IMG/VR virus record: IMGVR_UViG_3300010389_000051
Location: 1 to 37,274 of that record
Reading direction: 5' to 3' (one strand)
DNA length: 37,274 nucleotides
Source: a virus
The notes beneath the pieces are model-generated. The model did no database searches. It saw nothing but the letters and a program-made list of their open reading frames with translations, and was not told the origin of the DNA. A program made the position numbers and the translations under genes. Positions 2,752 to 36,212 of this stretch are shown here, piece by piece (the first letter of the stretch is position 1; every line of letters starts with the position of its first letter).

Positions 2752-3180
2752 GTGTCTACCGAATACGACGCATTGTTCGATGAAGACAACGATTCGGCTG
2801 ACTTGCCGAAGAAGTTGCGTGCCAAAATCAAGGAACTCCAGAAGGAGCGAGATGAGCTCGCTGGAAGGTTCGCTGAGATTGAGGCGGAGCGACGTAAGCA
2901 GAGTTTGGGTGAGTCCATCGCACAGCGTGGACTGAATCCGAAGATTGCTGCGTTTGTTCCTGCCGATGTTGAGGGCGAAGCTCTTGATGAATGGCTTAAC
3001 GAGTATGCCGATGTGTTCGGCGGACAACCAACGCAACAGCAGGTCGATCCTGCTGCTGCAGAAATTAATCGCATGAATGCCGTTCAGGCAGGTGCTGCGA
3101 CTCCTCAGTCAGACATCATGGCGCAGATTGATGCTGCCGAGTCTGAGGAAGAGTTGTTGGCTCTGCTGCGGCGTTCGTAA
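2752..3180 (+). CDS. Capsid scaffolding protein
   Basis: 142 aa from GTG 2752 (STEYDALFDED...); GTG 2743 is an alternative start behind AGGAAG. Longer readings run into the structured RNA region and are unlikely. The acidic N-terminus is followed by a coiled-coil stretch (about residues 16-52, LPKKLRAKIKELQKERDEL onward) and a helical C-terminus ending EEELLALLRRS. Size, charge and position directly before the major capsid gene fit a scaffold that is lost during head maturation. Confidence 0.75.
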   Translation: MSTEYDALFDEDNDSADLPKKLRAKIKELQKERDELAGRFAEIEAERRKQSLGESIAQRGLNPKIAAFVPADVEGEALDEWLNEYADVFGGQPTQQQVDPAAAEINRMNAVQAGAATPQSDIMAQIDAAESEEELLALLRRS

Positions 3181-12174: not shown

Positions 12175-13668
12175 ATGCCTCAAACAATCACTGGTGCCCT
12201 AAGTGGGCACAGCTACACAATCCCAGAACTCACCGATTCGGCGCATGTTGTGACTGCATTCGAGGATTTCGCAAACACCATACCTGCGTACCCGCAGGTG
12301 CGGATGGATGTAGCGCATGTCACTGCTGATGTGCCTGCTGCTTCCGTGCAGAAGGTGTACTTCGTTGAAACGGCGGCACCGTCAACAGTAACGTTGCCGG
12401 ATGTCGGCTTGGCGGACGGTGACCGGGTTGTCGTCTACCAGTTGGGTGACGGGATTGTTTCCTTCCTTCCGGGTGCCACCCCGGTGGGTGGGGGAATCCC
12501 GAACACGGGATCCAAGTACAACTCGTGTACCGCGACGTACCTGGGTGGGAAGTGGTACTTCGCCCCTTTTGGCTATAGCGGTACCCTGCCATCTGACTCT
12601 ATTGGCGGCGACGAGATCGTTGACGCAGTGGATCCTTCGGATGGTAAGACGTACCGCTACCACATTTTCCGCACTGTAGGTCCTGCACTGTTTACGTCCG
12701 CCCTGAGGGGGCAGACGGTTGAGGTGCTTACTGTTGGTGGTGGCTCCGATGGGGAGACTTCTTCCTACACCGCTGCCGGTTTAGGTGGCGATGGGGCTGA
12801 TCTAACTGAGGGTTCTGTCACTGCCAACTATTACGACATCTACACCCTTGAGGTTGGCGGTAAGGATTCACCTAGCCACATCAACCTGCCGTCAGGGAAG
12901 GTGACTGCTGATGGTGGTACGGGTGTGCGTGCTCCTGGTGATGACGAGTTGCCTTTGTCGCTTCGTCCTGGCTGGGCTTCAGTGTTGAAGATTTCCGATG
13001 TCTGTGGGTCTGGTGCTGATGGTGTTGGGCCAGTGGACGGATCCACGTTCGGTGCTGGCGGTGGTGGTGGCTTCAAGCTGAAGGAACCCTATAAGCAGCA
13101 GTCGTACACGCATACGTGGACGACGGGTGGGGCGTACGACTATGACTGTTCGTATGGTGCTCGGGGTGAGCAATATCAATCTGGGACGAACAACATCACG
13201 GGTGATCAGCGACCCTGTAATCCGTGTCCGGGACACGCCGTCATTTGCCATGGCCCGTGTCAATGCAACTTCGCGTGGCATGACTCTAGCGGAAGAGCGC
13301 ACTGGGGTGAGCGAGGACAGATGGGTTGCCCTGGTGGCTGGCATGTGTGTGGCTGCAACTGCTGCACCTCTCAACCCGTGTATTCAACCCGATACCACTG
13401 CGACAGCGGTGGATCCCTTTCGGGTTCCACCTGCCACAAGACGTGCCGTGGCGATAACACTCAGCATCACAGCGAGACTCGCTGGACTGACTGCGTCTCC
13501 GGCATGGCACCGGACGCTGACCGGAACTGTAAGGACACCCGCCCGGAGGGTAAGGGTTCAGGCAAGACAGGTGTCGTTGTTGTGCGTTACGAATTGACGA
13601 CCCCACCGGCGGGTAACTTCCGCTCGCTGAACGTGGCCGGGCTTCCCGGCATTCCAACCATCTATTAG
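12175..13668 (+). CDS. Fibre-like protein with Cys-rich insertion
   Basis: 497 aa; ATG 12175 follows GAAGGAG. The order is: anchor domain shared with the 11187 product (1-45), beta-rich body, and a Gly-rich stretch (GAGGGGGF near 297). About 130 residues with 16 cysteines follow (316-449, including CGCNCC), and then KTGVVVVRYE, the usual end of glycine-rich phage fibre domains. The Cys-rich segment appears to be inserted between the two halves of that Gly-rich module. Receptor binding is likely; disulfide or metal stabilisation is inferred. Confidence 0.7.
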   Translation: MPQTITGALSGHSYTIPELTDSAHVVTAFEDFANTIPAYPQVRMDVAHVTADVPAASVQKVYFVETAAPSTVTLPDVGLADGDRVVVYQLGDGIVSFLPGATPVGGGIPNTGSKYNSCTATYLGGKWYFAPFGYSGTLPSDSIGGDEIVDAVDPSDGKTYRYHIFRTVGPALFTSALRGQTVEVLTVGGGSDGETSSYTAAGLGGDGADLTEGSVTANYYDIYTLEVGGKDSPSHINLPSGKVTADGGTGVRAPGDDELPLSLRPGWASVLKISDVCGSGADGVGPVDGSTFGAGGGGGFKLKEPYKQQSYTHTWTTGGAYDYDCSYGARGEQYQSGTNNITGDQRPCNPCPGHAVICHGPCQCNFAWHDSSGRAHWGERGQMGCPGGWHVCGCNCCTSQPVYSTRYHCDSGGSLSGSTCHKTCRGDNTQHHSETRWTDCVSGMAPDADRNCKDTRPEGKGSGKTGVVVVRYELTTPPAGNFRSLNVAGLPGIPTIY

Positions 13669-18569: not shown

Positions 18570-18776
18570 TTAGTCCTGGACCTGGAACGTGGAGCGTCGT
18601 TTCTTGTTCGTGGTGGATAGCCCGAACTGTTTCTCCATCGACTCGATGCACCGAGTACAGAGGTCTCCCACTGTTCTCAGGCCGTCGGATCTTTTGGCGT
18701 CGATGTGGACGACTTCTCGTTTGGCGGACTCGATGGTTCCGCAGGCGTCACACAGCCTTGTCGGTATTACGGCCAT
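18570..18776 (-). CDS. Small zinc-binding protein downstream of integrase
   Basis: 68 aa. CDACG (9-13) and CTRC (40-43) form two CxxC pairs, a treble-clef or zinc-ribbon pattern, with a Lys/Arg-rich tail. ATG 18776 has GGAGAAGG upstream and lies 29 nt inside the 3' end of integrase, so the two are co-transcribed. It could be a recombination accessory or DNA-binding factor; not recognised further. Confidence 0.6.
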   Translation of the reverse strand: MAVIPTRLCDACGTIESAKREVVHIDAKRSDGLRTVGDLCTRCIESMEKQFGLSTTNKKRRSTFQVQD

Positions 18777-19749
18777 GGCCTTCTCCTAAGTACGTCACGT
18801 TGTCGGCTTGTAAGGAAGGATACAGGGGCCCGGATCGGGCCTGCTTGTCCCGCTCCGAACGGTCAACGTCGATGCCGATGTACACCTCGGACTGGTATTG
18901 GGATTTGTGGTGCAGCCAACTGGCGACCTGTCGGAGGGCTCCGTCGTATCCGAGGCGTTTCTTCTCCATGAACACGGCGGCAGCTGCAGAGCGCCTGAGG
19001 GTGTGCATTCCGGCTTTAGTTGTCGGGTATCCCATCTTCCCTAAAATCCTCTGTATGGGCCTGCTGAGACCTCCTGGGCCCAGTCCACGGGTGGGGCACA
19101 TCTCGTACTCTTGCCACCTGTTGGTGAGCTTCATCTGCGGGAGCAGATACCAGTCGTCCTGAAGCTCCCCATGTTGCTGGGCGTAGGCGATCAGGTACCG
19201 GCGGAGCTCGGCATCGAGCTCCGGGCTGATGGGCATCTGGTCATACTTCCCTGACTTATGAACGTGGACTCCAATCCAACCTTCGTTCAGGTTGATGTCA
19301 CCGAGTCGGATGCTTCGGGCTTCCGACTCTCGGGTCATCAGGTAGATCCCGATGGCCACAGCCATTCGGTCTCGACTGTTGGTGGCGGCATTCAGCAGGG
19401 CAGGGAACTGCCCCAAAGGAATGCGGAGCTTGGGTGTCTCAGGCTTCGGCTTGACCCGCTGGCCAACCAGCGGATCGAAGTCAATGGGGACGTGCTTGCG
19501 TTGCCTGGCCCACTTGAAGAAGTTCCGCAGGGCGGAGAAGTACAGGTTGTAGGTGCCGGGGCTGTTCGGGTTCATGGGCTTGGAACGCAGGAACTCGTCC
19601 ATCACTTCCGGGGTGATGGTCTTGATGTTGATGTCACCGAGGTGGGCGATCAACTTCTTCAGAACTTTGGTGTCGTTCTTGACGGTGGACTCTGACCAGC
19701 CGTTGCGGCGGTAGGCCAGGTAAGCGTCGATGGCGATGCTCAGTTTCAT
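18748..19749 (-). CDS. int: Tyrosine integrase
   Basis: 333 aa. An N-terminal SAM-like core-binding domain (1-100) precedes the catalytic domain with Arg140 (MTRESEARSIR), Lys165 (HKSGK), His249-x-x-Arg252 (HTLRR), His280 or His281 (WLHH) and nucleophile Tyr290 (SEVYIG). All key residues are present. It catalyses integration at attP/attB and so marks the phage as temperate. ATG 19749 has AGAGGAG upstream. A promoter candidate and a perfect palindrome lie in its leader. Confidence 0.93.
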   Translation of the reverse strand: MKLSIAIDAYLAYRRNGWSESTVKNDTKVLKKLIAHLGDINIKTITPEVMDEFLRSKPMNPNSPGTYNLYFSALRNFFKWARQRKHVPIDFDPLVGQRVKPKPETPKLRIPLGQFPALLNAATNSRDRMAVAIGIYLMTRESEARSIRLGDINLNEGWIGVHVHKSGKYDQMPISPELDAELRRYLIAYAQQHGELQDDWYLLPQMKLTNRWQEYEMCPTRGLGPGGLSRPIQRILGKMGYPTTKAGMHTLRRSAAAAVFMEKKRLGYDGALRQVASWLHHKSQYQSEVYIGIDVDRSERDKQARSGPLYPSLQADNVTYLGEGHGRNTDKAV

Positions 19750-19763
19750 GGTTGCTCCTCTGT

Positions 19764-19782
19764 GGTGCGCGACTCGCGCACC
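19764..19782. promoter_or_regulatory. Perfect palindrome in the integrase leader
   Basis: GGTGCGCGA, one central C, then TCGCGCACC: a 9-bp perfect inverted repeat 15 nt upstream of the integrase ATG. It could be an operator, or an RNA hairpin that hides the ribosome site (AGAGGAG lies just beside it). Confidence 0.55.
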
Positions 19783-19805
19783 GTTGTTTGGTTGTCTTGT
19801 TGGGA

Positions 19806-19834
19806 ATCATACTAACCCAGTGCGTGGAATGCAA
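19806..19834 (-). promoter_or_regulatory. Candidate integrase promoter
   Basis: On the minus strand TTGCAT (19834-19829), a 17-nt spacer, and TATGAT (19811-19806), a 5/6 match to the -10 consensus. The start would be near 19799, leaving a leader of about 50 nt that includes the palindrome. Confidence 0.45.
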
Positions 19835-19850
19835 GAACCCATCAAAGGTA

Positions 19851-19872
19851 ACCACGGTAACCATACCGTGGT
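19851..19872. promoter_or_regulatory. Inverted repeat in the int/regulator divergent region
   Basis: ACCACGGT (19851-19858), AACCAT spacer, ACCGTGGT (19865-19872): perfect 8-bp arms, with GGTAACCA directly repeated at the left. It lies between the two divergent promoters and is a good operator candidate for the regulator encoded at 19966. Confidence 0.5.
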
Positions 19873-19929
19873 GCGTACTTGGGCAAACCGGGCACGGTCC
19901 ACGAGAGAAAACTCTGACCGTCGATTTTT

Positions 19930-19959
19930 TTGGGTAAAGGGGCATCCCTGTCATACACT
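19930..19959 (+). promoter_or_regulatory. Rightward promoter for a leaderless regulator mRNA
   Basis: TTGGGT (19930-19935), 18-nt spacer, TACACT (19954-19959). The ATG of the regulator begins only 7 nt after the -10, so transcription should begin at or next to the A of the ATG. No SD is seen before this ATG. Leaderless mRNAs are common in actinobacteria. Confidence 0.55.
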
Positions 19960-19965
19960 GCAAAC

Positions 19966-20403
19966 ATGCCAGCGAAGAGATTGTTGCCATCGGACTCCAC
20001 CCTCAAGAAGTGGGTGGAGGAAGGGCTGTCTCACCAAGACATCGTGGACCGGGTTTTGGAAAGAGAAAATGTCGTTGTTTCCAAGTCTGGTGTAGCCGCA
20101 GCCCTATCAAGGGCTGGGCTTACCAACCGCATCCGCTACGACAAGCATGTTCCGTGGACACCGATCCGGCCAGACCACGCACGGGCGTATCCGTTGACGA
20201 TGCTGCGGTACCTGGCCCGGCGAGATGCCGGGGAGCAGCTGCTGCCACAGACAGGGGAACGACTGAACTCGTGGCTTGAGCGTCTTCGTGAGGAAGACGC
20301 GGTCGTGGACTACGACTACAACAGCGCCCAAGGTTTCATTTACCGGAGACGAAAGAAGGGGGATCTCGATGATCCCCCGATCAGGCCGCCGAAGAAGACC
20401 TGA
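19966..20403 (+). CDS. DNA-binding regulator (helix-turn-helix), repressor candidate
   Basis: 145 aa. Residues 11-45 (TLKKWVEEGLSHQDIVDRVL...VSKSGVAAALSRAGLTNR) look like a helix-turn-helix; residues 65-120 (YPLTMLRYLARRD...LNSWLERLREEDAVVDYD) look like a winged-helix or second helical domain. An upstream open extension from 19930 would include the promoter and is rejected. First gene right of integrase and divergent from it, the classical place for an immunity or early regulator. The repressor role is inferred. Confidence 0.65.
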   Translation: MPAKRLLPSDSTLKKWVEEGLSHQDIVDRVLERENVVVSKSGVAAALSRAGLTNRIRYDKHVPWTPIRPDHARAYPLTMLRYLARRDAGEQLLPQTGERLNSWLERLREEDAVVDYDYNSAQGFIYRRRKKGDLDDPPIRPPKKT

Positions 20404-20693
20404 GTTACCAGAGCTCGGCTTGCCGAGCGACGCCTCGCTCTGTTCCCCCGTCAGGAGCCGGACCTATGTCCCGGCTCCTCCTCCGTTCTCCGCTTCGCTC
20501 GCTTGCATCCGCCGCTCGCTCAGTGTAATGAGGACTATGAAGCCTTTCCTGGCTGAGCGCAAGTGCGACACAAGCACTTGTTACCAAAGTGTTATTCCTT
20601 TCAAGACGACACGCCGAAAGTTTCTGTTTGGTACTTGCGTCTGTCACACCCAGGCTTTATGGTCAGTGACCTGCCAATGGATACGGAGGAAAA
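20404..20693. other. 290-bp gap with hairpins and an inverted repeat
   Basis: No convincing gene. GCTCGGC/GCCGAGC (20413-20428) is a 7-bp stem with a TT loop. CAAGTGC (20560-20566) and GCACTTG (20574-20580) form an inverted repeat with a 7-nt spacer, a possible operator for the replication operon. A weak frame encoding MKPFLAERKCDTSTCYQSV and later CVCH runs through 20528-20722 but overlaps the structured DNA and the next gene. Confidence 0.4.
20454..20478 (+). terminator. Terminator-like hairpin after the regulator
   Basis: GGAGCCGG (20454-20461) pairs with CCGGCTCC (20471-20478), loop of 9 nt, followed by a C/T-rich tract. It would isolate the regulator transcript from the replication operon. 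Confidence 0.55.
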
Positions 20694-20912
20694 ATGATGG
20701 AACAGTCGACCGTTCTGGTTGACGGGGAGCACATCTACGCAACCCAAGACAGTGACGGGATCCTCGTCACGTACAGCGACAAGTGCCCTGTTCAAGAACT
20801 CAGCACGATCCTCGTCCTGGCCGCTAATGCCGGACTGGACATGAACGACCAATGGTGGGACACCCAAGAAGAACGTCACGTCCTGACGTTCGGGAACAAG
20901 GAGATCGAATGA
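20694..20912 (+). CDS. Small acidic protein, first gene of the replication operon
   Basis: 72 aa (two adjacent ATGs at 20694 and 20697), behind GGAGGA. Hydrophilic, with one Cys and a Trp-Trp pair (NDQWWDTQEERHVLTF). Its TGA overlaps the ATG of the exonuclease N-terminal ORF. Unknown function. Confidence 0.6.
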   Translation: MMEQSTVLVDGEHIYATQDSDGILVTYSDKCPVQELSTILVLAANAGLDMNDQWWDTQEERHVLTFGNKEIE

Positions 20913-21091
20913 CACCGGACAACTATTCGTTCAGCCAAGTTAACTCTTGGCTGCACTGCCCAAAGCAGTACCAACTGTCACGGCTCCTGGGTGCACCACA
21001 AACACCGAGCGTGTGGCTGGCAGCAGGCACCGCTCTCCACCAAGCCATCGAAACAATCAACCGAGCACATCATGAGAGGACAAAGAAATGA
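20909..21091 (+). CDS. Cas4/RecB-type exonuclease, N-terminal fragment
   Basis: 60 aa. SFSQVNSWLHCPKQYQLSRLL gives the family's first motif with Cys17, the usual lone N-terminal Fe-S ligand. GTALHQAIE carries His44, the family's first catalytic-site motif. The family is normally one chain of about 280-300 aa; here the frame stops after HHERTKK and the rest lies at 21237. ATGA overlaps join it to the genes on both sides. Two small polypeptides may assemble the enzyme. Confidence 0.7.
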   Translation: MTPDNYSFSQVNSWLHCPKQYQLSRLLGAPQTPSVWLAAGTALHQAIETINRAHHERTKK

Positions 21092-21240
21092 GCATCAAAG
21101 CTCCCGCGTATGAGATCCGTATCGCAGCCGAGTTCTACGGCGACAAGTGGTACCCGTTAGGCAGCGACACTCCGCTGCCGAAGGAATCCATCGTAGAAAT
21201 TTACGACGGCGGCATCCATGGGGCTGAGGATTTGGCATGA
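21088..21240 (+). CDS. 50-aa ORF lying between the exonuclease halves
   Basis: MSIKAPAYEIRIAAEFYGDK onward, ending GIHGAEDLA. ATG 21088 overlaps the upstream TGA and its own TGA overlaps the ATG at 21237, so the three genes are coupled in three different frames. It is soluble, with mixed charge and no Cys. It shows no nuclease, intein or HNH motif. It may be an inserted gene, or a subunit or inhibitor of the split enzyme. Confidence 0.55.
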   Translation: MSIKAPAYEIRIAAEFYGDKWYPLGSDTPLPKESIVEIYDGGIHGAEDLA

Positions 21241-21923
21241 TTGCAAGTTCCTCGCACGACTTCACAGATGTTTGGGCTAACGCCTTGGCGACACAGGTGG
21301 AGCGGGTCAGCGGCAGCAACCCTGACCTGCCCACGTCGCAATGGCGACGAGCCGGACGGAAGACAACAGCGAAGCCACACGGGGAAGACCTGGAATGGTG
21401 GCAAGCCGAAGGTCTCCAACAGCTCAACACTTACTACGAGTGGCTATCGAGTAGCGACTGGACTTTCGTTGAACACAACGGTGACCCGTTGATCGAGTTC
21501 AACGTGTCCGGGAACCTGGGCGACAACTACGTCAAAGGCTTCATCGACTCCGTCATGACAGACGGAGAGAAGACGATGCTGATCGACTATAAGTCCGGGT
21601 CGCGCACACCATTTGGGCTCATGCAGCTCGGCGTCTACCGCATTCTGCTGCGGAACCTGACTGGTGTGGACGCCACGCATGGCGTGTTCTGGATGACGAG
21701 GAAGGGTGAACCAACCGAGCCAGCACCACTGGATCGGTACACCAACGACTACGTCTCCAACATCTTCGCGCAGTTTCACTCCGCAGTGGACAACCGAGTG
21801 TTCATCCCGAACGAGGGATCGCACTGTTGGTCCTGCGATGTTCGCTCCGCCTGCTACATCCAAGGCGGCGTCGATGCATGGAAGTGGGACCCCGACCACC
21901 CGCAGTACGGAGGTGGCAAGTGA
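21237..21923 (+). CDS. Cas4/RecB-type exonuclease, C-terminal catalytic part
   Basis: 228 aa. GFID (Asp104), DYK (Asp117, Lys119) and QLGVY (Gln130, Tyr134) are PD-(D/E)XK motifs II, III and the Q-x-x-x-Y motif of RecB/Cas4 nucleases. Cys197, Cys200 and Cys206 (CWSCDVRSAC) form the typical C-terminal trio of the [4Fe-4S] cluster. The fourth Cys and the motif-I His are on the separate ORF at 20909. The role is probably DNA end resection for phage recombination. Confidence 0.8.
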   Translation: MIASSSHDFTDVWANALATQVERVSGSNPDLPTSQWRRAGRKTTAKPHGEDLEWWQAEGLQQLNTYYEWLSSSDWTFVEHNGDPLIEFNVSGNLGDNYVKGFIDSVMTDGEKTMLIDYKSGSRTPFGLMQLGVYRILLRNLTGVDATHGVFWMTRKGEPTEPAPLDRYTNDYVSNIFAQFHSAVDNRVFIPNEGSHCWSCDVRSACYIQGGVDAWKWDPDHPQYGGGK

Positions 21924-22210
21924 GCGAGTGGGACGACTACATCTGGAACGAAGAACCGATGGCGATGCTGGAGAACGAGTTCACTGTGTTCTGGAATCGC
22001 ATCTGCGATTCGATGTGGGAAGACGACTCCGAAGACATCGATGACGTGACCGTCACAGGTGCACCGTTCTGCGGCTGCAGCGTCTGCAGTGCCAGAGAAA
22101 CGTTCGCATTCCTGATGCCCAGGTTTATTGACCTGTGGGAATCAGGCGACATCAAGCTTGCAACAACGCAAGAACCCAACAAAGAAGGAGCAGTCAATGT
22201 CGATGAGTGA
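21920..22210 (+). CDS. Acidic protein of unknown function
   Basis: 96 aa from GTG 21920, overlapping the exonuclease TGA (GTGA). Very acidic centre (WEDDSEDIDDVTVTG) followed by CGCSVC, which could bind a metal. It overlaps the next gene by 14 nt. No family recognised. Confidence 0.6.
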   Translation: MSEWDDYIWNEEPMAMLENEFTVFWNRICDSMWEDDSEDIDDVTVTGAPFCGCSVCSARETFAFLMPRFIDLWESGDIKLATTQEPNKEGAVNVDE

Positions 22211-22631
22211 AGCGCCGTACTCAGTGACCACGAAGGTGGGCACTGATTTGCTGACCGTTCGTGGAAGTTCAGCGGACGAGTTCGTTGAGAATCTCACGAA
22301 CCTCAACGAGAACCCACTGTTCGCTGATGCCCTCGCGACTTTCCAGTCGCTCGGCGGTGGCGTGTCAGTGCAGCAGGCGGTGGCTAACGTGAAGGAAGCC
22401 ATCCCCGGCACCACGGAAGTTGGCGGTGAGCCTGAGGTTGTCACCAACCAGAAGGGGACCCGCTACACCTACAACCATCCCGATGCACCGGCGACCGCTG
22501 ACGGTCGCAAGATGCTCCTGATGGAGGGCTCGAACGCTAAGGGCCCGTTCCGTGGATGGGTGGACCCGACGCAGGGTCCGAAGCCTGCCACTCCAACGGA
22601 GAACAAAGAAGCTACTCGTTGGATTAAGTAG
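22197..22631 (+). CDS. Replication-operon protein, possible ssDNA-binding role
   Basis: 144 aa; ATG 22197 is behind GGAG. A beta-strand start (YSVTTKVGTDLLTVRGSSADEF) and a basic, Trp-containing C-terminus (GPFRGWVDPTQGPKP) make up a soluble protein. Placement between exonuclease and helicase suggests a DNA-binding accessory, for example a single-strand binding protein, but no OB-fold signature is certain. Confidence 0.55.
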   Translation: MSMSEAPYSVTTKVGTDLLTVRGSSADEFVENLTNLNENPLFADALATFQSLGGGVSVQQAVANVKEAIPGTTEVGGEPEVVTNQKGTRYTYNHPDAPATADGRKMLLMEGSNAKGPFRGWVDPTQGPKPATPTENKEATRWIK

Positions 22632-23458
22632 TGAAGCGTCTATCGCAACGTCGGCGGAAGGGGACATCTGCGGGTGTCCCCCTCCCCGACTTCTTTCCAC
22701 TGTTGAAGGCGAACGATATTCGCCTGCGTCGTGGTCAGGTAACTGCGGTGGTTGCTCAACCGAACGGCGGCAAGAGCCTGTTTGCGATGTTCGCTGCGAT
22801 GAAGATGCAGGTGCCGACACTGTTCATCAGTGCCGACACTGACGAAGCGACGATGCGTATCCGAGCTGCAGCGTCACTGCTGCAGACCGAATGCAAAGAG
22901 ATCGAGGAGATGATGCAGAGCTCAGGCGCTGTCATCATTGACGCGGAGATGGAACAACTCGATGACTTCCTGTTCTGGAGTTACGAGCCGTCGCCGAACC
23001 TGGAGTACATCGAGCAGGAGATCCTGGCGGTGGATGAAGTGCTTGGCCACTTCCCCCACCTGATCGTCTTGGACAACTTGATGAACGTTGCTCACTCCTC
23101 GGACGCTGAATGGCAGGAGATGCGGGCCACCATGGCTGCACTCCACACGCTAGCGAGGAAGACGGACAGTTGCGTGATGGTTCTCCATCACGTTTCCGAG
23201 AACGACTCACGTCCGTTCCTACCCCCGCCACGCAAAGCCATCCAAGGAAAGGTGTCGCAGCTGCCGGAGCAGATCCTGTCGGTAGCGATGAACCCGAAGG
23301 ATGGGCTGTTCAAGATCGCAGCAGTGAAGAACAGGCACGGTGCTCACGATCCGACAGGTGAGGAGCACGTCACGTTGTGCGTTGATGCTGCACGGATGTC
23401 CCTGTACCAGTCCCAGCAGGACATGCAGCGGGCGAAGACGATGTTGGAATACCAGTGA
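22631..23458 (+). CDS. DnaB/RecA-like ATPase, replicative helicase candidate
   Basis: 275 aa from GTG 22631, which overlaps the previous TAG. Walker A AQPNGGKSL (42-50), a FISADTDE strand and Walker B LIVLDN (144-149) are present, followed by a MVLHHVSE sensor-like motif and a region KNRHGAHDPTGEEHVTL typical of DnaB-type C-terminal domains. The N-terminal DnaB domain is absent, as in many actinophage helicases. It would unwind DNA with the split primase downstream. Confidence 0.8.
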   Translation: MKRLSQRRRKGTSAGVPLPDFFPLLKANDIRLRRGQVTAVVAQPNGGKSLFAMFAAMKMQVPTLFISADTDEATMRIRAAASLLQTECKEIEEMMQSSGAVIIDAEMEQLDDFLFWSYEPSPNLEYIEQEILAVDEVLGHFPHLIVLDNLMNVAHSSDAEWQEMRATMAALHTLARKTDSCVMVLHHVSENDSRPFLPPPRKAIQGKVSQLPEQILSVAMNPKDGLFKIAAVKNRHGAHDPTGEEHVTLCVDAARMSLYQSQQDMQRAKTMLEYQ

Positions 23459-23470
23459 AAGGAAACGCCC

Positions 23471-23659
23471 ATGCCTATCTGCTCACCATGCCTCGCCGGA
23501 GGCAGGGCCAACAAAAGGTTGGCGCTGCTCACCGATGAAGGCGACCTTGAGGGCGCTGACCAGGCTCGCGTTGATGCCATGGAGCATCATTCTCATTGCG
23601 TGGGAAGCAAGCAGTGTGTTTGTCAGCACGCAGTCGGATACGGACTCATCAAGCGATAA
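23471..23659 (+). CDS. Mini zinc-binding protein (CxxC...CxCxH)
   Basis: 62 aa behind AAAGGAA. CSPC (4-7) and a C-terminal HSHC...CVCQH cluster are consistent with one zinc site. A short acidic helix joins the two halves. One of several such proteins in this operon; function unknown. Confidence 0.6.
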   Translation: MPICSPCLAGGRANKRLALLTDEGDLEGADQARVDAMEHHSHCVGSKQCVCQHAVGYGLIKR

Positions 23660-23681
23660 CCCTTTGAAGCTCCTGTTGTCG

Positions 23682-23864
23682 ATGGAGCTTGACGGTACGG
23701 ACTTCACCTGGATGGGGCCAACCACGGTGTGTGTGTGCGGCGGAGAGCTGTGGCACATCGTGTGTTGGTTCGATCCGGTGGATCGAGAAGTCGGTGGACG
23801 GTTCTTGGAGATGCAGTGTGTGAACTGCGGATCGTATTGCAAGAGCCCAACGCCAATAGATTGA
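23682..23864 (+). CDS. Mini zinc-ribbon protein
   Basis: 60 aa from ATG 23682; the frame is open further up but overlaps the previous gene. CVCGGELWHIVCW and CVNCGSYC supply paired cysteines about 33 residues apart, a zinc-ribbon layout. The SD is weak, so it may depend on coupling. Function unknown. Confidence 0.55.
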   Translation: MELDGTDFTWMGPTTVCVCGGELWHIVCWFDPVDREVGGRFLEMQCVNCGSYCKSPTPID

Positions 23865-23874
23865 GAGGTGCACG

Positions 23875-24360
23875 ATGTTAGAGACACTCGCGTTGGCCGC
23901 TGCAGTAGCGAGCGGCCCTGACCACATCACGCTGCTTGATCGCAGCGTGAACATGAAGAAGCCTGCTACTGGTGCTTTCGGTGATCAGATTGGTTCCGCT
24001 GCCAGGGTCCCGAAGAAGTGGCGACCGTTCGCCAGGTGTGTGCTTGACCGTGAGTCCGGTGCGAACCTGGAGAACTTGAACTCCGGTGAGGGTGCGAAGA
24101 ACCCACGCTCGTCAGCTTCAGGCCGATTCCAATTCTTGAATAGCCAGTGGCAGCACGGCGGTTCCTTCATGGTGAAGGACCGCCTGGTCACGTTCGGTGT
24201 TCCGAAGTCTCACGCCAGCAAGGTGCGGAAGAAACTTGGCCGCACTCCGATCCATAAGTGGGACGGGCATTTTCAGCAGGCCCTGTTCAACGAGGTGGTT
24301 CGTCGGGGTGGCTGGTTCCACTGGCGTAACGGTGACCGCTGCGACGGTCAGCGGCCATGA
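23875..24360 (+). CDS. Lysozyme-like / transglycosylase-like protein
   Basis: 161 aa behind GAGAGGTG. CVLDRESGANLENLN (55-69) resembles the catalytic Glu motif of lysozyme-like (SLT/Rpf) domains, with Glu60 the likely acid. SASGRFQFLNSQWQHGG (80-96) and RGGWFHW near the end match the family's fold core. It lies in the replication operon, far from the lysis cassette, so an early or virion role (DNA entry) or second lysin is possible. The first 15 residues are mildly hydrophobic but not a clear signal peptide. Confidence 0.65.
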   Translation: MLETLALAAAVASGPDHITLLDRSVNMKKPATGAFGDQIGSAARVPKKWRPFARCVLDRESGANLENLNSGEGAKNPRSSASGRFQFLNSQWQHGGSFMVKDRLVTFGVPKSHASKVRKKLGRTPIHKWDGHFQQALFNEVVRRGGWFHWRNGDRCDGQRP

Positions 24361-24506
24361 GTGAAGAACCGATGAGTTACTGCGCGGAATGCAACAAGAC
24401 CGCGAAAGCATCACAGTACGCATGCTTTTGTGGAGCGTGCGTCGTTTGCGATTGCGACCAGCCAACTGAAACTGTCTTGCCGAACGGGAGGACGTACACC
24501 CGATGA
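24357..24506 (+). CDS. Cys-rich mini protein
   Basis: 49 aa; ATG 24357 overlaps the previous TGA. CAEC (9-12) and CFCGACVVCDC (23-33) give seven cysteines in 25 residues, enough for a two-zinc or Fe-S site. Coupled by overlap to the next ORF. Function unknown. Confidence 0.55.
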   Translation: MSEEPMSYCAECNKTAKASQYACFCGACVVCDCDQPTETVLPNGRTYTR

Positions 24507-24613
24507 ATTTCCTAATCGCAGTTATTGATGAGTTGATCTTCAGGCCACTTTTGTGGCTGGTCAACTGGAAGCCAGACATATCCAACCCGTACATACACAA
24601 GGAGGAACAGTGA
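24503..24613 (+). CDS. 36-aa amphipathic/membrane-associated peptide
   Basis: MNFLIAVIDELIFRPLLWLV followed by a short polar tail. The hydrophobic N-terminal 20 residues could insert in, or lie on, the membrane. It overlaps genes on both sides (ATGA, GTGA). Unknown role. Confidence 0.5.
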   Translation: MNFLIAVIDELIFRPLLWLVNWKPDISNPYIHKEEQ

Positions 24614-24777
24614 ATAAGTACCGCAACAGTGTGACCGTGTACAGCGACGAGCCCGTCGATGTTCTTGCGTTGGCTAAGGCCATGCAGAAGTTTGGCCGTG
24701 TCGCTGATGTGTCTAGCCACCCCGTCTCTAAGTGGGATGGCGAGGGTTACTTCGATGGCGAGGGAGAAGGAGAATGA
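24610..24777 (+). CDS. Small acidic protein
   Basis: 55 aa from GTG 24610 with AAGGAGG upstream. A regular beta-alpha-beta start (NSVTVYSDEPVDVLALAKAM) and a Gly/Glu-rich tail (DGEGYFDGEGEGE). Coupled to the next gene by an ATGA overlap. Not recognised. Confidence 0.55.
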   Translation: MNKYRNSVTVYSDEPVDVLALAKAMQKFGRVADVSSHPVSKWDGEGYFDGEGEGE

Positions 24778-25175
24778 ACCGTCCGAAGAATGTGGAAGTG
24801 CGAGGCTTCGCAACTATCGAAGCCCGCATCACCTGCGTCGCAGACATCCTGGATCTCGCCGAGTACTTGAAGTATCTCGGTGTTGAGGAAGCTGCGGAGA
24901 CTGACTGCGATGCAGGGAAAGTGTGGGTTGATCTGCACGAGACTGCAGTGACTGTCGAAGACATCGAATGCAGCAGCCATGTCCCCGTCAAAGGGCAGAT
25001 GCACTTCGATCTGTTGCTCCCACTGCATGACTGCGACAGTCGCCCAGTGGAAGAGCGGAAGACCCACGGGGCTGTCCCGCAGTACGACTTCCCCCGCAAA
25101 GACCGAGGCATCGAATGCGTTTGCGGTGACGTCGACTGTCCGATGGATTGGAGAGTCAGTGCTGGATATCGATGA
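24774..25175 (+). CDS. Protein of unknown function with C-terminal Cys motif
   Basis: 133 aa; the N-terminal half is a two-helix domain (ITCVADILDLAEYLKYLGVE), the C-terminal part carries CVCGDVDC, a possible metal site. Coupled both ways by overlaps. No function assigned. Confidence 0.55.
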   Translation: MNRPKNVEVRGFATIEARITCVADILDLAEYLKYLGVEEAAETDCDAGKVWVDLHETAVTVEDIECSSHVPVKGQMHFDLLLPLHDCDSRPVEERKTHGAVPQYDFPRKDRGIECVCGDVDCPMDWRVSAGYR

Positions 25176-25254
25176 GCACGAACACCGGACGCAAGGCCCA
25201 TACGAGCCTTGCGAACTGTGCGGCCTGCCCTGGGAGGAGCTGGGTGATGACTGA
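25159..25254 (+). CDS. 31-aa zinc-knuckle-like peptide
   Basis: GTG 25159 behind GGAGAG. VLDIDEHEHRTQGPYEP followed by CELCGLPWEELGDD. CxxCG with two upstream His could bind zinc. It resembles the next tiny ORF (CEICGVEEKDHA), suggesting duplication of a minimal module. Confidence 0.4.
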   Translation: MLDIDEHEHRTQGPYEPCELCGLPWEELGDD

Positions 25255-25339
25255 GCAAAAGCACAAGCCGTTGTACCTCACCTGGCGTGGCCGGATGGTG
25301 TGCGAGATCTGTGGAGTTGAGGAGAAGGATCATGCCTAG
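25247..25339 (+). CDS. 30-aa zinc-knuckle-like peptide
   Basis: ATG 25247 behind GGGAGGAG; MTEQKHKPLYLTWRGRMV then CEICGVEEKDHA. It overlaps both neighbours. The CxxCG plus His ending resembles the preceding ORF. Function unknown. Confidence 0.4.
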   Translation: MTEQKHKPLYLTWRGRMVCEICGVEEKDHA

Positions 25340-25670
25340 CAAAGGCAAGGCGAAAGGCAGTGCTGCTGAACGTGCAGTCGTGACGTGGCTCCGGGACCAA
25401 GGCTGGATCGGTGCCGAGAGAACCAGGGCTGGATGGCAGGACGACCGAGGTGACATCGATGGTGTCCTCGGTGTCACGTTCGAGGTGAAGAACCAGCAGC
25501 GCATGGAGTTGGCGCAATGGGTGGAAGAGCTACTCGTTGAGATGGTCAACGGTCGCAACAACGTTGGGGCCGTTGTGCATAAGCGTCGTGGAACTACGGA
25601 TGTTGGTGACTGGTACGCCACCATGCCGGTGTGGGTGTGGGCGTACCTGCTGAAGCAGGCGGGTTACTGA
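25332..25670 (+). CDS. Holliday-junction resolvase-like nuclease
   Basis: 112 aa. GSAAERAVVTWLRDQGW carries Glu13; Asp41 lies in DRGDIDGV, and Glu51-x-Lys53 in FEVKNQ. Together these are the PD-(D/E)XK motifs of archaeal-type Hjc-like resolvases. It would cut branched DNA during phage replication or recombination. ATG 25332 overlaps the upstream ORF and its TGA overlaps the WhiB ATG. Confidence 0.8.
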   Translation: MPSKGKAKGSAAERAVVTWLRDQGWIGAERTRAGWQDDRGDIDGVLGVTFEVKNQQRMELAQWVEELLVEMVNGRNNVGAVVHKRRGTTDVGDWYATMPVWVWAYLLKQAGY

Positions 25671-25963
25671 TGATTATGGAATGGGCCGAGAGGGCCAACT
25701 GCATTGGCACTGACACGAACGGTTGGTACTCTCCTGATCAGGGCAGTAAGCAAATACCTGACAAGGGTGAGTTAAAGCGCATCTGTGACAGGTGTGAGGT
25801 GATTGACCAGTGCCTGGAATGGGCGGTCAAGCATGAGACCCATGGCTTCTGGGCTGGCACGACACCGGATGACCGACAGCGGATGCGCCACACCCGGGGC
25901 TTGTGGGTTGACGATCCGATGTATTGGGACAAGGGCAGGTGGGCGAAAGTTGGACGAGGATGA
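25670..25963 (+). CDS. WhiB-family Fe-S transcription factor
   Basis: 97 aa. Cys11, Cys39, Cys42 and Cys48 (ANC...ICDRCEVIDQC) provide the four [4Fe-4S] ligands, followed by GFWAGTT (59-65), the family's G-[VI]-W-x-G turn, here with Phe, and a basic C-terminus. WhiB proteins occur in actinobacteria and their phages and act with the housekeeping sigma factor. Probably modulates host or phage transcription. The alternative start ATG 25676 would drop two residues. Confidence 0.85.
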   Translation: MIMEWAERANCIGTDTNGWYSPDQGSKQIPDKGELKRICDRCEVIDQCLEWAVKHETHGFWAGTTPDDRQRMRHTRGLWVDDPMYWDKGRWAKVGRG

Positions 25964-26327
25964 CAAGGCTGCCTTATTGGCAGCCGTGTTCGATCACTAT
26001 GACCTTGCTTACCCGCGAGGGTACGGGGACCGGAGCTGCAAGTGCCCGGTCCATGAGGACACTCACGCATCCGCGAGTGTCAATACCGAGACTGGATTGT
26101 GGACGTGCTTCGCCTGCGGGTCAGGCGGGGATGGGTTCACGATCATCGAGATGAAGGAAGGTGTGGGCTTTGCAGACGCTCACAGAATCGCAGAGGGAAT
26201 TCTTGGCGGAAGCGACTCAGGCGTACGCCGAGAGTCTTCTGAACTCTTCGGCAGCAGAGTATCTAGCAAGCCGAGGAATCGACCCCGAAAGGGCGAGGGA
26301 TACGTTCCGCCTTGGTCACGTCTCTAA
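25950..26327 (+). CDS. Primase zinc-binding part
   Basis: 125 aa from TTG 25950, placed behind AGGTGGG; no ATG/GTG start is better. Cys32, His35, Cys53 and Cys56 (CPVH...CFAC) form the CHC2 zinc site of DnaG-type primases, followed by GSGGDGFTII. The frame ends after VPPWSRL; the catalytic TOPRIM part is in another frame starting at 26161. Overlap with WhiB is 14 nt. Confidence 0.75.
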   Translation: MDEDDKAALLAAVFDHYDLAYPRGYGDRSCKCPVHEDTHASASVNTETGLWTCFACGSGGDGFTIIEMKEGVGFADAHRIAEGILGGSDSGVRRESSELFGSRVSSKPRNRPRKGEGYVPPWSRL

Positions 26328-26847
26328 CCCACTGCCGTCACATGAACGGTTCAAGGACATGCTCGCGATCCCATACATCGCGAAGTCAGGTCCGGTCGGG
26401 TTTAAGTTCCGTCGCCTTGACGACAACGGCCCGAAGTATCTGGCCCCGGAGAACAGTCGTGTTCGACTGTTCAATGTGACGGACGTGTTCGTGAACCATC
26501 CGCAGGTGTTGATTGTGGAGGGTGAGTTGGATGCGGTGACGGCGAAGCTGGCTGGTGTGCCAGCTGTCGTCGGTGTGAGTGGTGCCCAGAACTGGAAGCC
26601 GCACTTCGCTCGCGTGTTAGATGGGTTCGAGGAAGTCATTGTCTGCGTGGACAACGACTTGGATAAAGAGTCAGGACAAAACCCTGGTCAGCAGTTAGCT
26701 CAGAAAATTCTCAAAGATATTCCACATGCACGAAACGTTGTAGTCAGTAGCGGTCTGGACATTAATGCCTTATACTTACTTAAAGGACACGAAGGCCTGT
26801 TCTCCACCCTGGGAATCAAGGTCGAACCTGAAGAACCAATGGAGTAA
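26161..26847 (+). CDS. Primase TOPRIM catalytic part
   Basis: 228 aa at most, in the +1 frame relative to the zinc part, overlapping it by 167 nt. LIVEGELDAVTA (Glu120, Glu122) and VIVCVDND (Asp164, Asp166) are the TOPRIM metal motifs. The start GTG 26161 has its SD too close, so the true start may be downstream, or the two parts may be joined by frameshifting. Adjacent, split primase ORFs are known in mycobacteriophages. Confidence 0.75.
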   Translation: MWALQTLTESQREFLAEATQAYAESLLNSSAAEYLASRGIDPERARDTFRLGHVSNPLPSHERFKDMLAIPYIAKSGPVGFKFRRLDDNGPKYLAPENSRVRLFNVTDVFVNHPQVLIVEGELDAVTAKLAGVPAVVGVSGAQNWKPHFARVLDGFEEVIVCVDNDLDKESGQNPGQQLAQKILKDIPHARNVVVSSGLDINALYLLKGHEGLFSTLGIKVEPEEPME

Positions 26848-26849: not shown

Positions 26850-27140
26850 GTGTCCCTTGACCAACACCCCGCTGTTCGCAACCTGGGCAGCGGGGTTTCT
26901 TCTATCGACCTTGCGGATCTCATCAACCAACTATCCGAACGGGCTCGGCGTCGCGTCATCACCATCGGTGAGACGCAGTACGGGGGCGCTGTTCAGAAGT
27001 TCGAAGAGATGAGTCCTGAAAAAATTTTCGACGAGTTACTTGACGAGGTTGCCGATGTCTACGCCTACTCCGCCTTCCTCGTTATACATGCAATGGCTAT
27101 CCGCAACAAGTCTCACGGAGTTCGAGGAGATGATCAATGA
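26850..27140 (+). CDS. MazG-like nucleotide pyrophosphohydrolase
   Basis: 96 aa from GTG 26850 behind GGAG. The helical motif DELLDEVADVYAYSAF (61-76) matches the acidic E-x-x-x-E/D pattern of the all-alpha NTP-pyrophosphatase superfamily, with an upstream IGETQYGG. Likely removes unwanted dNTPs or alarmones. Overlaps the next gene by 4 nt (ATGA). Confidence 0.6.
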   Translation: MSLDQHPAVRNLGSGVSSIDLADLINQLSERARRRVITIGETQYGGAVQKFEEMSPEKIFDELLDEVADVYAYSAFLVIHAMAIRNKSHGVRGDDQ

Positions 27141-27889
27141 GCAGGCGGATAGTGATCGTGCCGGACCTTCAGGTCCCGTTCCACAGTAGGGGTGGGGTCG
27201 AAGCTCTCGCCCAGTTCATCGAGGACTACAAGCCTGATCAGGTCGTCTGTGTTGGCGACCTGATTGACATGCCCCAGATCTCACAGTGGACCAAGGGCAC
27301 GGCGGGTGAGCACACTCGTGACCTGCACAAGCACAGGAACCAGGCCATCGAAGTGATTGACATGCTGCAGATCGATGTGATCTCCCGTGCCAACCACGAG
27401 GACAGGCTCTGGAAGAGCCTGAGCCAAAGGCTGCCGGGTTTGCTGGACTTGCCTGAGCTCCGCATTGAGAACTTCCTGAAGCTCGATGAGATGAACGTGG
27501 TCTATTCGCATGAGCCTTTCAAGTTGGCCCCTGGTTGGTACTTGCTTCACGGTGACGAGAGTGCACAGTCATCGAAGTCGGGAATGACAGCCAGCAACCT
27601 GAGCCAAAAATTAGGCGCCTCCGTGGCCATAGGCCACACCCACAAGCTCGGGTTGATCCCGACCACCCACATGGTGGGCGGGGTTGTCACTCGAACGGAC
27701 TGGGGTTTCGAGGTCGGCTGCATCTTGGACTTCAAGTCTTCGGGCTTCAAGTACATGAAGGGCATGGCCAATTGGACTCAAGGGTTCGGGATGTTGCATG
27801 TGGACGGGAAGACCGTCACTCCCACCCCGGTTCCGATCATCAACAAGAGCTTCGTTGTGGAAGGCGAGACGTACAGGTGGAAAAAGTGA
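27137..27889 (+). CDS. Calcineurin-like metallophosphoesterase
   Basis: 250 aa. The motif order DLQVPFH (10-16), GDLID (40-44), NHE (86-88), HGD (138-140) and GHTH (166-169) covers all five metallophosphoesterase blocks. The C-terminus is beta-rich. Typical of phage phosphatases of unknown substrate. Coupled to the sigma-like gene by GTGA. Confidence 0.85.
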   Translation: MSRRIVIVPDLQVPFHSRGGVEALAQFIEDYKPDQVVCVGDLIDMPQISQWTKGTAGEHTRDLHKHRNQAIEVIDMLQIDVISRANHEDRLWKSLSQRLPGLLDLPELRIENFLKLDEMNVVYSHEPFKLAPGWYLLHGDESAQSSKSGMTASNLSQKLGASVAIGHTHKLGLIPTTHMVGGVVTRTDWGFEVGCILDFKSSGFKYMKGMANWTQGFGMLHVDGKTVTPTPVPIINKSFVVEGETYRWKK

Positions 27890-31320: not shown

Positions 31321-32160
31321 TTAGTCGACTCGACGGGCAGAGCGACGGTCAAGGTCGCTCCATTCGGCAAGCTTCTTGCTAGACAGGCCGCTGTTGTACA
31401 ACTCGTGGATGACCTGAGCCACCCAGTTGGACACACGGTTGCTGCCTACTGCCCGTGACCGGGCAGCCACCATGATCTCGGTGGCGTCAGCCTTCGATAG
31501 CACCTTGGCCAAGCGGTCGGCACTGAACTGCGAGTCGGACATCGCCCGGTCCAGGAACAATCCAAGACCCTCAACGATCTCGCGACGGTAGGCAGCCTTC
31601 GGCATGTTGTTCTTTGCCAAAGCTTTCGCTGCCCGCAGAGCCTCAACGATCAGGATCTCTGCCTCAATGCGGTTCGATCCCAGCTTCTGAGCCATGCTCA
31701 GCAGGCCACCGACACAGGACACCGTGTCCTTCGACACGGTGCTGCCGATTGTGAACCCGGCGATCTTGGCTGCGCTAGCCACGGTCAAGTGGTCCGGGTC
31801 CTTGCCCAACACGCCACCCTTGTACTTCTCAATCGGCGAAGCGTTGGCACGCTGGCCGTTGAACTTCAGGTACATGTCGGCCTCTTCTTGCAGTGTGAGG
31901 CCGGAGTATTCGAGAGCATCGAACATCGTGTCGATGTCCGTGTCGCCGCTCTCGATACGCATGCGTGTTGCTGCCTGACGGTGGCCACCATCCACGAGAG
32001 CCAGGGTTCCGTCGGATCGCTTGGAAACGACGACGAATCCGGCAATCTCGGGCTGCCAGTTGTCTGCCATCTTCTTGACGTGGCTCTTGCGAACTTCACG
32101 CTGATACTTCAGGTCGTGCTTCACATCAAGGATGTTTACTTTGCAGGTCCGCTTTTGCAT
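31321..32160 (-). CDS. ParB-like nuclease-domain protein
   Basis: 279 aa. The N-terminal half shows the ParB/Srx pattern: YQREVRKSHVKKMADNW, GFVVVSKRSDGTLALVDGGHRQAA (26 onward), then helices. The C-terminal half includes an HTH-like SSKKLAEWSDLDRRSARR. May be a DNA-binding, partition-like or DNA-modifying regulator. Stands behind an unusual leader with four hairpins. Confidence 0.75.
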   Translation of the reverse strand: MQKRTCKVNILDVKHDLKYQREVRKSHVKKMADNWQPEIAGFVVVSKRSDGTLALVDGGHRQAATRMRIESGDTDIDTMFDALEYSGLTLQEEADMYLKFNGQRANASPIEKYKGGVLGKDPDHLTVASAAKIAGFTIGSTVSKDTVSCVGGLLSMAQKLGSNRIEAEILIVEALRAAKALAKNNMPKAAYRREIVEGLGLFLDRAMSDSQFSADRLAKVLSKADATEIMVAARSRAVGSNRVSNWVAQVIHELYNSGLSSKKLAEWSDLDRRSARRVD

Positions 32161-32324: not shown

Positions 32325-33341
32325 TCAGGCCACGATCAGGTCGAACGCCTTGGTCTTGAACGAATCGCTCATGCCCATGAGGGCACGCTCGGCACGCCGA
32401 GCTTCCTGGTCCTTGCCCTTGACGGACTGGACGTGGTCGCTCCATTCCACGGCTGCGTTCCACAGGCTCCAACCATCAGAACCTTGAGCCCGGTACGGGC
32501 TCGTGGTCATCAGGTCGTTCACCTCACGACGTGACTGCGTCACGATGGAGAACTTGCGCTTCTCCCCCGTGCTCATGTCCGCGTAAGGCTTGACGACCAG
32601 GTCGGCAGGCATCACGAACAGTTGCTTGAGGATGTCGTTGACGTCCTCCTGTCGCAGGGTCACGGCCTTGAGCGTGGAATACACGGCCTCGGTCATGTCC
32701 TGCTGCTCGCGCATGATGCCCAGGATCTGAGCGGTCTGGTTGGCGTCGTTGCTATCGAGCGCAACACGGTGACCGACCTTGGCCTTCTTGTCCTTGGCCG
32801 CCCCATCGGAGAAGGCCAGGGTGTTGGAGCAGACCACGCGGATCGGGCTCACGGTGGCAGTCGTGGCACGGGTACCGTCGTGTCCAGTGGACACGGTCAG
32901 GTACATCTGCGTCTTCTCGTCACCGAGCAGAGCATCACCGGGCAACTTGATGGTGGCGAACGAATGCGCTCCATCCTTCAGGTTGCCGACCGTTTCCACG
33001 GTCGCACCATGACCGAGCAGGTCTTCAGCCCAGCCCCATAGATCGAGCAGGCTGTGCGGCTTGAAGCGTGTGCTCAGCCCACCACCGAAAGCCTTGATGT
33101 CAGTAGGCACATCGATGTTCCGGCGAAGCACGGCCTGACGCTCACCGCTCACCTGAACGGCAGCCCCGTCCACGTCTACGAACACGGGCGCTAGTTCATA
33201 GGTGTAGCGCATCTGCGCAATGAGCAGCGCCTCTTCCATCGTCACATCGTCGGGCATGACAGTGCCGAGACGATGCCAGCCCGGCTCGCGTACTGCGAGG
33301 AACGCTGCGGTTCCGTCTTCTCTGATCTCTAGATTGTGCAT
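32325..33341 (-). CDS. DUF932 / TIGR03299-type phage-plasmid protein
   Basis: 338 aa. The N-terminal EPGWHRLGTVMPDDVTMEEALLIA and central SPIRVVCSNTLAFS (the family's TPVRVVC-N-like strand), with the helical C-terminus, match this widespread phage and plasmid family of unknown function. RBS AAGGAG. Precedes the ParB-like gene in the same operon. Confidence 0.8.
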   Translation of the reverse strand: MHNLEIREDGTAAFLAVREPGWHRLGTVMPDDVTMEEALLIAQMRYTYELAPVFVDVDGAAVQVSGERQAVLRRNIDVPTDIKAFGGGLSTRFKPHSLLDLWGWAEDLLGHGATVETVGNLKDGAHSFATIKLPGDALLGDEKTQMYLTVSTGHDGTRATTATVSPIRVVCSNTLAFSDGAAKDKKAKVGHRVALDSNDANQTAQILGIMREQQDMTEAVYSTLKAVTLRQEDVNDILKQLFVMPADLVVKPYADMSTGEKRKFSIVTQSRREVNDLMTTSPYRAQGSDGWSLWNAAVEWSDHVQSVKGKDQEARRAERALMGMSDSFKTKAFDLIVA

Positions 33342-35324: not shown

Positions 35325-36212
35325 TCAGAAGTTGCGGATGAATCCGCTCTCGTCCCGCGCACCCTTGTGACCCTTCACGCGGAGCGCCAGCACCGCACCC
35401 TTACGGTCCTGGGGTCGGTAGTCGCTCGTGTCGCCATCGATCACGGGCATACCGAGCCAGGTCTCAGGGAAGGCTTCATCCTTGCCATAGAAGAACGGCA
35501 CGGCCACGCGCTCACCAGAGGCAACTAATTCTTTGATGTCGCCTTCAGTGTGCCTCTCAGAGGCGCTACGGGTTAGGTCATAGCCCGCGCCCTCCGGGCG
35601 CTGATGTGCGGGTGCCTTCGTGTAGTCGTACCAGTGGACACCATGGGCACGGGCATAGTCCATGCCAGTGACCAGGATCCGCTCGATACGAATGTCCGAT
35701 GTCGTGTTGAATCGGAACGCTACTTCACCCTTACGGCGGGCCAGGGATCCCAATTCCCACCCGATTAGGTAGAAGAACGCGCCCGGATTGCTCAACATGA
35801 ACAGGGTGCGGACACCCTGGGCATACTGCGCAGCGGGCATACCCGACTGGCCAGAGAACGTGAGGCACGCGGACGCGCACCCGGTGCTCGCCCAGGGACA
35901 TAGGTTGAATGCACCCTCAAGGCCATACGCCTGGCGCAGGTCATCGAATTCTGGGCGCATGATGCCGCGCTCAGGCGTGAGCATCAGGCCTACAGTCTCG
36001 ATATCGCTCATCCCTAGTTTGTGTTGCGCCGCAGCGCTCGTGAGAATCTTGGATGCCGTGGCCTTGTAGCCCGCACGGGCCCGGAATGCGGCCCATATTT
36101 CGGTCTCCCACGGGTCACGGCGTGAGCCGTTGAATCCGTGCTCGAAGCCACGCGAGAATTGCGCATCCGCGTGGCCATCAGCCAATAATTGCTCTACTTT
36201 GGTCATGTTCAT
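35325..36212 (-). CDS. Gp88-like phage protein
   Basis: 295 aa. Central CPWASTGCASACL gives CX6CX3C (Cys105, 112, 116), followed by RTLFMLSNPGAFFYLIGWEL and FRFNTTSDIRIERI. Similar arrangements occur in mycobacteriophage Gp88-type proteins, of unknown biochemistry. The three Cys suggest a metal or Fe-S site. RBS GAGAGGAGC. Confidence 0.65.
   Translation of the reverse strand: MNMTKVEQLLADGHADAQFSRGFEHGFNGSRRDPWETEIWAAFRARAGYKATASKILTSAAAQHKLGMSDIETVGLMLTPERGIMRPEFDDLRQAYGLEGAFNLCPWASTGCASACLTFSGQSGMPAAQYAQGVRTLFMLSNPGAFFYLIGWELGSLARRKGEVAFRFNTTSDIRIERILVTGMDYARAHGVHWYDYTKAPAHQRPEGAGYDLTRSASERHTEGDIKELVASGERVAVPFFYGKDEAFPETWLGMPVIDGDTSDYRPQDRKGAVLALRVKGHKGARDESGFIRNF

Follow-up and report, generated by a model that had tools for sequence, protein, structure and literature searches.

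The Cas4/RecB-type exonuclease of this phage of actinobacteria is divided between two genes. Judged by homology, the first and third of three overlapping ORFs are contiguous halves of a PD-(D/E)XK enzyme that other actinophages make as a single chain, and we consider it very likely that they result from an ancient fission of one gene and have been retained as two translationally coupled subunits of a single enzyme, whose active site and Fe-S cluster would form across the two chains. The window, by which we mean the whole stretch of 37,274 nucleotides that was analysed, is an IMG/VR virus record. In it, an N-terminal piece of 60 aa (20909–21091), a middle gene encoding 50 aa (21088–21240) and a C-terminal piece of 228 aa (21237–21923), all on the plus strand, use three different frames and are joined by an ATGA overlap at both junctions; the coordinates, lengths, frames and overlaps are exactly those given in a preliminary description of the locus. 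Each ORF has its own Shine–Dalgarno site: AAGGAG, 5 nt upstream of the start, for the N piece, GAGAGGA for the middle gene and GAGGA, 6 nt upstream of the start, for the C piece. The chain of overlaps runs beyond the three ORFs first described, as an upstream gene of 72 aa (20694–20912, plus strand) shares an ATGA with the N piece and a downstream gene of 96 aa with a GTG start (21920–22210, plus strand) shares a GTGA with the C piece, making a series of five small genes from 20694 through 22210. Searches of the 72-aa protein against Pfam and PHROG gave no match; the nearest relative of the locus, L087, has a similar ORF at the same position.

The two pieces match different parts of one nuclease. 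The 60-aa ORF matches solely the N-terminal end of PD-(D/E)XK nuclease profiles, at positions 2–50 of Pfam PDDEXK_1 (E = 2e-6) and 90–140 of the exonuclease family phrog_69 (E = 2.8e-12), and the 228-aa ORF matches positions 77–246 of PDDEXK_1 (E = 1.9e-10), 77–296 of the exonuclease family phrog_1870 (E = 2.9e-43) and 54–160 of Pfam Cas_Cas4 (25.3 bits, cut-off 22.7). For the class of PF12705 and phrog_1870, the N and C pieces scored 28.4 and 41.5 bits, respectively, against a cut-off of 22. The profile regions covered by the two pieces are contiguous and do not overlap.

Motifs I (His), II (Asp) and III (D-x-K) of the RecB family and the QxxxY motif are all present, divided over the two chains. 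The N piece carries Cys17, the putative first Fe-S ligand, and His44 in the G40xxxH44 motif-I helix, and the C piece carries Asp104 (GFID), Asp117 and Lys119 (DYK), Gln130 and Tyr134 (QLGVY) and three further putative Fe-S ligands, Cys197, Cys200 and Cys206 (Cx2Cx5C), so that the cysteines follow a pattern of one N-terminal and three C-terminal. All of these residues, cysteines included, align with those of single-chain homologues, and the alignment bears out the placement of motifs originally proposed; that the ligands are divided between the chains is a matter of fact. About 1,200 phage records contain a homologue of the C piece, at less than 60% identity, nearly all of them from phages of Mycobacterium, Propionibacterium/Cutibacterium and Rhodococcus. 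In four annotated phage examples, the homologue is a single-chain gene, annotated as an exonuclease or as a Cas4 exonuclease and lying near a gene for a DnaB-like helicase, and the two window pieces jointly cover the whole of that single chain at 28–31% identity with every motif in place. Comparison with single-chain homologues in related phages, which the preliminary description had proposed as a check, therefore shows two pieces that align as a whole chain, and together with the profiles it supports the proposal that one Cas4/RecB exonuclease is split over two polypeptides with its ligands divided. The single-chain actinophage enzyme, known from mycobacteriophage and from Propionibacterium, Rhodococcus and Thermobifida phages, shares the catalytic and Cys motifs and the neighbourhood with the window, but it is a single polypeptide of some 265–320 aa, as is usual for a phage Cas4-like exonuclease, whereas the window uses two genes. 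A further sign of actinophage kinship is a protein of the structural region of the window, which has 30% identity to Streptomyces phages.

IMG/VR was scanned with alignments covering, in turn, the complete protein, its C piece and its N piece; the results, with the window and the phage records examined, gave 244 sequences including repeats, and profile HMMs applied to stop-to-stop ORFs were used to sort them. The two pieces lay on separate ORFs in 158 and on one ORF in 83, and in three the N piece was absent at a contig end. With exact repeats removed there were 115 split loci and 75 single-chain loci, and at 85% identity the full-length loci formed 44 split clusters (from 112 loci) and 25 single-chain clusters. 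The break falls at the same point in all 115 distinct split loci and, because it recurs in so many, the arrangement is far beyond chance. The scan seeded with the C piece, whose patterns span no N-piece residue, returned 73 split loci, three single-chain loci and three cut at a contig end, with no orphan C piece; wherever the contig extends far enough, the N piece is upstream of the C piece. L087 has the same three-gene order, with a C piece 62% identical and an N piece 78% identical to those of the window. The split is also shared by two cultured Planktophila phages, LanE43-AprF5 and AprE7 (OX376641 and OX376640), in which an N piece of 61 aa and a C piece of 202 aa overlap out of frame.

In these two phages (L244 and L245; OX376641.1 and OX376640.1), the split exonuclease lies at 2257–3034 of records that carry no gene annotation in the collection. 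Their isolation, as freshwater phages of a Ca. Planktophila isolate, has been reported (PMC10202952); neither an exonuclease nor Cas4 turned up when the paper was searched for these words. Searches of viral contigs with P0003 alone, or together with the helicase, gave no relatives, and blastn of positions 19000–26000 against phages gave no match. A search of genome contigs with the C-piece alignment was likewise without a match, and hence gave no evidence of a prophage.

A lone metagenomic contig could be wrong, and the split might then reflect an error of sequencing, assembly or binning, or the recent decay of the gene to a pseudogene in a single phage. The chance of this is negligible, as 115 loci with the same break, a relative with a C piece only 62% identical and two cultured phages stand against it; sequencing errors at both junctions, which the preliminary description had named as a way in which its reading could fail, are excluded by the same evidence, and recurrence in independent contigs and isolates refutes the pseudogene too. 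Both pieces have omega values near 0.1 and ten key residues are unsubstituted, which also argues against decay. Over 204 pairs, which share branches and are thus non-independent, median omega was 0.10 for the N piece and 0.12 for the C piece (C-piece dS 0.15 to 1.2), and the two are therefore both under purifying selection and maintained as proteins. Between the window and L087, where dS is near saturation, omega was 0.06 for the N piece, 0.33 for the middle gene and 0.19 for the C piece. Among the 112 split loci there is not one substitution at Cys17, Gly40, His44, Asp104, Asp117, Lys119, Gln130, Tyr134, Cys197, Cys200 or Cys206, the last showing a single alignment gap, and the key residues are likewise free of substitution in the 75 single-chain loci. 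The Cys is itself part of the N-piece scan pattern, and the motif-II Asp is part of the whole-protein one, so that the fair test for these two residues comes from the loci found by other scans; the C-piece patterns contain none of the key residues.

The position of the break was examined on an AlphaFold2 model of a single-chain relative, L166 (mean pLDDT 95). Two proteins from GenBank phage records were left out of the alignment used for AlphaFold. In the L166 model, a helix bearing GxxxH (37–57) is followed by a loop (58–66) and a second helix (67–86), and the aligned splits map to the loop. In the PDB the model matches ACE1 Cas4-family proteins, AdnA, Dna2, Exo5 and Cas4, and in BFVD it matches single-chain phage exonucleases. 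These comparisons bear on the view that the C piece works as an enzyme by itself, with the N piece serving some other function. The C piece modelled alone does have a confident core (pLDDT 85), but this isolated model fits Cas4 structures poorly (TM 0.3–0.45), compared with values of up to 0.63, by target length, for the single-chain model against solved structures. Moreover, the N piece is always upstream, and it alone holds the motif-I His and the fourth Cys, both unchanging. An independent C piece is consequently very unlikely, and relatives in which the C-terminal part has N-terminal motifs of its own, a second finding that the preliminary description had said would count against it, never occur.

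In a tree of the 69 clusters, all of the splits fall in one larger group (support 100/99), which also holds nine single-chain clusters. The distribution of split and single genes requires three changes on this tree, two of them forced by well-supported branches, and the single-chain branch of L145 and L166 adjoins the subgroup of the window. The AU test does not reject a topology that unites all splits (p 0.097), but a single origin is not proven, because L145 and L166 lie inside or beside the split group. It is possible that there was one fission with later re-fusions, or that two or three fissions occurred at the same loop. The genes of L145 (3755–4666) and L166 (3989–4849) are single-chain and may be natural re-fusions.

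The junctions themselves suggest how the pieces are translated. In 38 of the 44 split clusters, the start of the C piece overlaps the preceding stop by 1–17 nt, and in 20 of these 38 the overlap is exactly 4 nt, of the ATGA or GTGA type; the count is mildly biased, as the choice of start favoured Shine–Dalgarno sites. The pieces are within 30 nt of each other, and in every case overlap, in eight of the 44 clusters, and are 41–835 nt apart in the other 36. Where the pieces are adjacent, their ORFs overlap in shifted frames, and it is conceivable that some translation events fuse them through consecutive programmed frameshifts or through ribosome bypassing. However, a canonical slippery heptamer is absent at the window junctions and, by eye, at nine adjacent junctions; the frame relation varies, being +1 in L090 and L093 and −1 in the others; and frameshifting cannot yield a fusion of N to C where several genes separate the halves. 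We give this explanation very little credence.

Because the gene is interrupted and ORFs lie in the interruption, splicing also comes to mind: the halves could be exons joined by removal of a group I or II self-splicing intron that contains small ORFs, or exteins joined by a split intein. A search of L006, L008, L009, L013, L015 and L027 against Rfam, at the gathering threshold, found no match, and the window gave only sub-threshold chance matches. In several split loci the two ORFs overlap out of frame, leaving no gap, and each window junction has a stop codon and a start codon with a Shine–Dalgarno site. At 145 nt, the stretch separating the halves in the window falls below the size of known group I introns, which counts against an intron, and on either piece there are too few residues past the conserved helices to make intein halves. 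Inteins are known in Cas4-like exonucleases of cluster C1 mycobacteriophages (PMC5050341), an enzyme of the same class that is likewise interrupted by coding sequence, but there protein splicing restores one chain, and no intein was found here. Rejoining by splicing is thus highly improbable, and separate translation of two coupled pieces is the reading that we retain.

What lies between the halves varies, from nothing to one or several small unrelated genes. A family with the motif YPxGSDTPxP occupies the gap in the window, L087 and L006; the homologue of the middle gene encodes 45 aa in L087, whereas in L006 it is the first part of a 105-aa ORF, found with a profile of the window and L087 sequences (E = 1e-5). 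The middle ORF has no Pfam or PHROG match, and against phages gave just a chance match (E = 9). Within the large clade, three families recur in the gap: a zinc-ribbon family, in 31 of the 36 insert-bearing clusters, a helical one, in 27, and a small beta-type one, in nine. Neither the middle ORF nor representatives of the insert families matched a homing endonuclease in Pfam or PHROGs.

The zinc-ribbon family, with the motif CPCGS...CxxC, moves within the replication operon of these phages; it has no significant Pfam or PHROG match, and a search of the zinc-ribbon protein against phages found nothing. It also occurs outside the gap. In the window it corresponds to the C-terminal part of an ORF behind the helicase (23340–23864, plus strand; HMM E = 1e-14), in L087 to positions 6080–6406, and in L109 and L125 to a gene upstream of the N piece. 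The helical-looking family, of some 65–85 aa (e.g. L008 5792–6052, L015 5245–5487 and L091 3802–4002), usually lies directly before the C piece and, among the loci examined, is found solely between the halves; it has no Pfam match.

The middle protein could be a dedicated third subunit or an assembly factor. The gene has been kept in place in the window, L087 and L006, with an omega of 0.33, and the zinc-ribbon and helical genes recur between the halves in 31 and 27, respectively, of the 36 insert-bearing clusters. Against this, the halves follow each other with no intervening gene in eight split clusters and in the cultured phages, the insert families vary by clade, and the zinc-ribbon gene is found elsewhere in the window, L087, L109 and L125. 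A third subunit is thus improbable, and the middle gene as a universal subunit is ruled out by the splits without an insert. Of the two roles first suggested for the middle product, subunit or invader, both are weakened, since some splits lack a middle gene, the contents of the gap vary and no homing endonuclease was found. We read the gap as a permissive place in the replication operon rather than the seat of a required third subunit, and the 50-aa gene as one passenger.

The window and the single-chain actinophages have in common the order small gene, exonuclease, DnaB-like helicase. In the window the helicase (22631–23458, plus strand) matches its PHROG with E = 2.5e-64, and the same order is found in L002–L005. 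Homologues of an integrase (18748–19749, minus strand) and of a transcriptional repressor (19966–20403, plus strand) lie to the left of the exonuclease, and because of these two genes the phage is probably temperate. Downstream of the helicase are genes for a Toprim-domain, primase-like protein (26161–26847) and a calcineurin-like phosphoesterase (27137–27889), and the right arm carries, on the minus strand, DUF6551 (31321–32160), DUF932 (32325–33341) and GP88 family (35325–36212) genes. The structural region includes a 497-aa ORF (12175–13668) with no PHROG match.

From these observations we infer an assembly, with Fe-S formation, nuclease activity and a role in replication, along the following lines. 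The ribosome would make the 60-aa N piece, comprising the helices with the first Fe-S cysteine and the motif-I His, and, by way of the start–stop overlaps and the separate Shine–Dalgarno sites, would go on to the small unrelated protein and then to the catalytic C piece of 228 aa. Bound to each other non-covalently, N and C would rebuild the single-chain fold, bringing His44 in trans to Asp104, Asp117, Lys119, Gln130 and Tyr134 in a metal-dependent active site, and Cys17 in trans to Cys197, Cys200 and Cys206 in an Fe-S staple; the interface proposed here is extrapolated from homology with the single-chain enzymes. The two small proteins must probably join to form a working enzyme, which would serve the replication and recombination module beside the DnaB-like helicase, and small genes of the operon would have been placed repeatedly into the gap between the halves. 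The fission may also be non-neutral and give the phage control over the nuclease: in an obligate heterodimer, with an active site and Fe-S staple that close upon assembly alone, cleavage would be gated, across a widespread actinophage clade, through coupled translation or through the small proteins between the halves (zinc-ribbon, helical or 50-aa), a view that we hold to be unlikely.

The CRISPR-associated Cas4 proteins SSO0001 and Pcal_0546 share with the window the RecB fold, the motif-I His, the Asp and Asp/Glu residues, QxxxY and the pattern of one plus three cysteines, but they are single chains, and both by sequence and by structure AdnA and ACE1 are nearer; no cas genes, including cas1 and cas2, were present among the subset of window ORFs scanned. 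In Pcal_0546 four cysteines, one N-terminal and three C-terminal, bind a [2Fe-2S] cluster, whereas SSO0001 binds [4Fe-4S], and the conserved His of Cas4 has been proposed as a metal ligand (PMC4176176). Cysteine mutants of Pcal_0546 lose the cluster but retain cleavage (PMC4176176), and because of this a complete cluster may be dispensable for activity.

Phage enzymes split into two polypeptides have been reviewed, the cases being tied to homing endonucleases: NrdA of Aeromonas phage Aeh1 is split by mobE and is reported to be fully functional, and the gene for the large subunit of the T4 topoisomerase is split with mobA (PMC2988022). Like the window, Aeh1 NrdA has complementary ORFs of one phage enzyme in two polypeptides. 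The Aeh1 and T4 splits, however, are linked to insertion of a homing endonuclease in particular phages, whereas here none was found in the inserts examined, and the split extends over a large clade in which some members have no insert. A search of the literature, with most subscription papers outside its reach, turned up neither a split Cas4 nor a split phage exonuclease; genes in pieces are known, and the two-gene Cas4-like nuclease is apparently undescribed, although such a search is not proof.

An Fe-S nuclease is thus kept in two pieces, broken at one loop, across a diverse phage clade that includes cultured phages. An N piece of 60–75 aa is easily overlooked or labelled hypothetical, and the C piece then resembles a Cas4 without the motif-I His and the fourth Cys. 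With single-chain relatives available for comparison, and with LanE43-AprF5 and AprE7 as a laboratory system, the family offers a naturally occurring test of how two chains jointly build an active site and an iron-sulfur cluster, of whether fission is neutral or regulatory, and of why genes gather in the gap.
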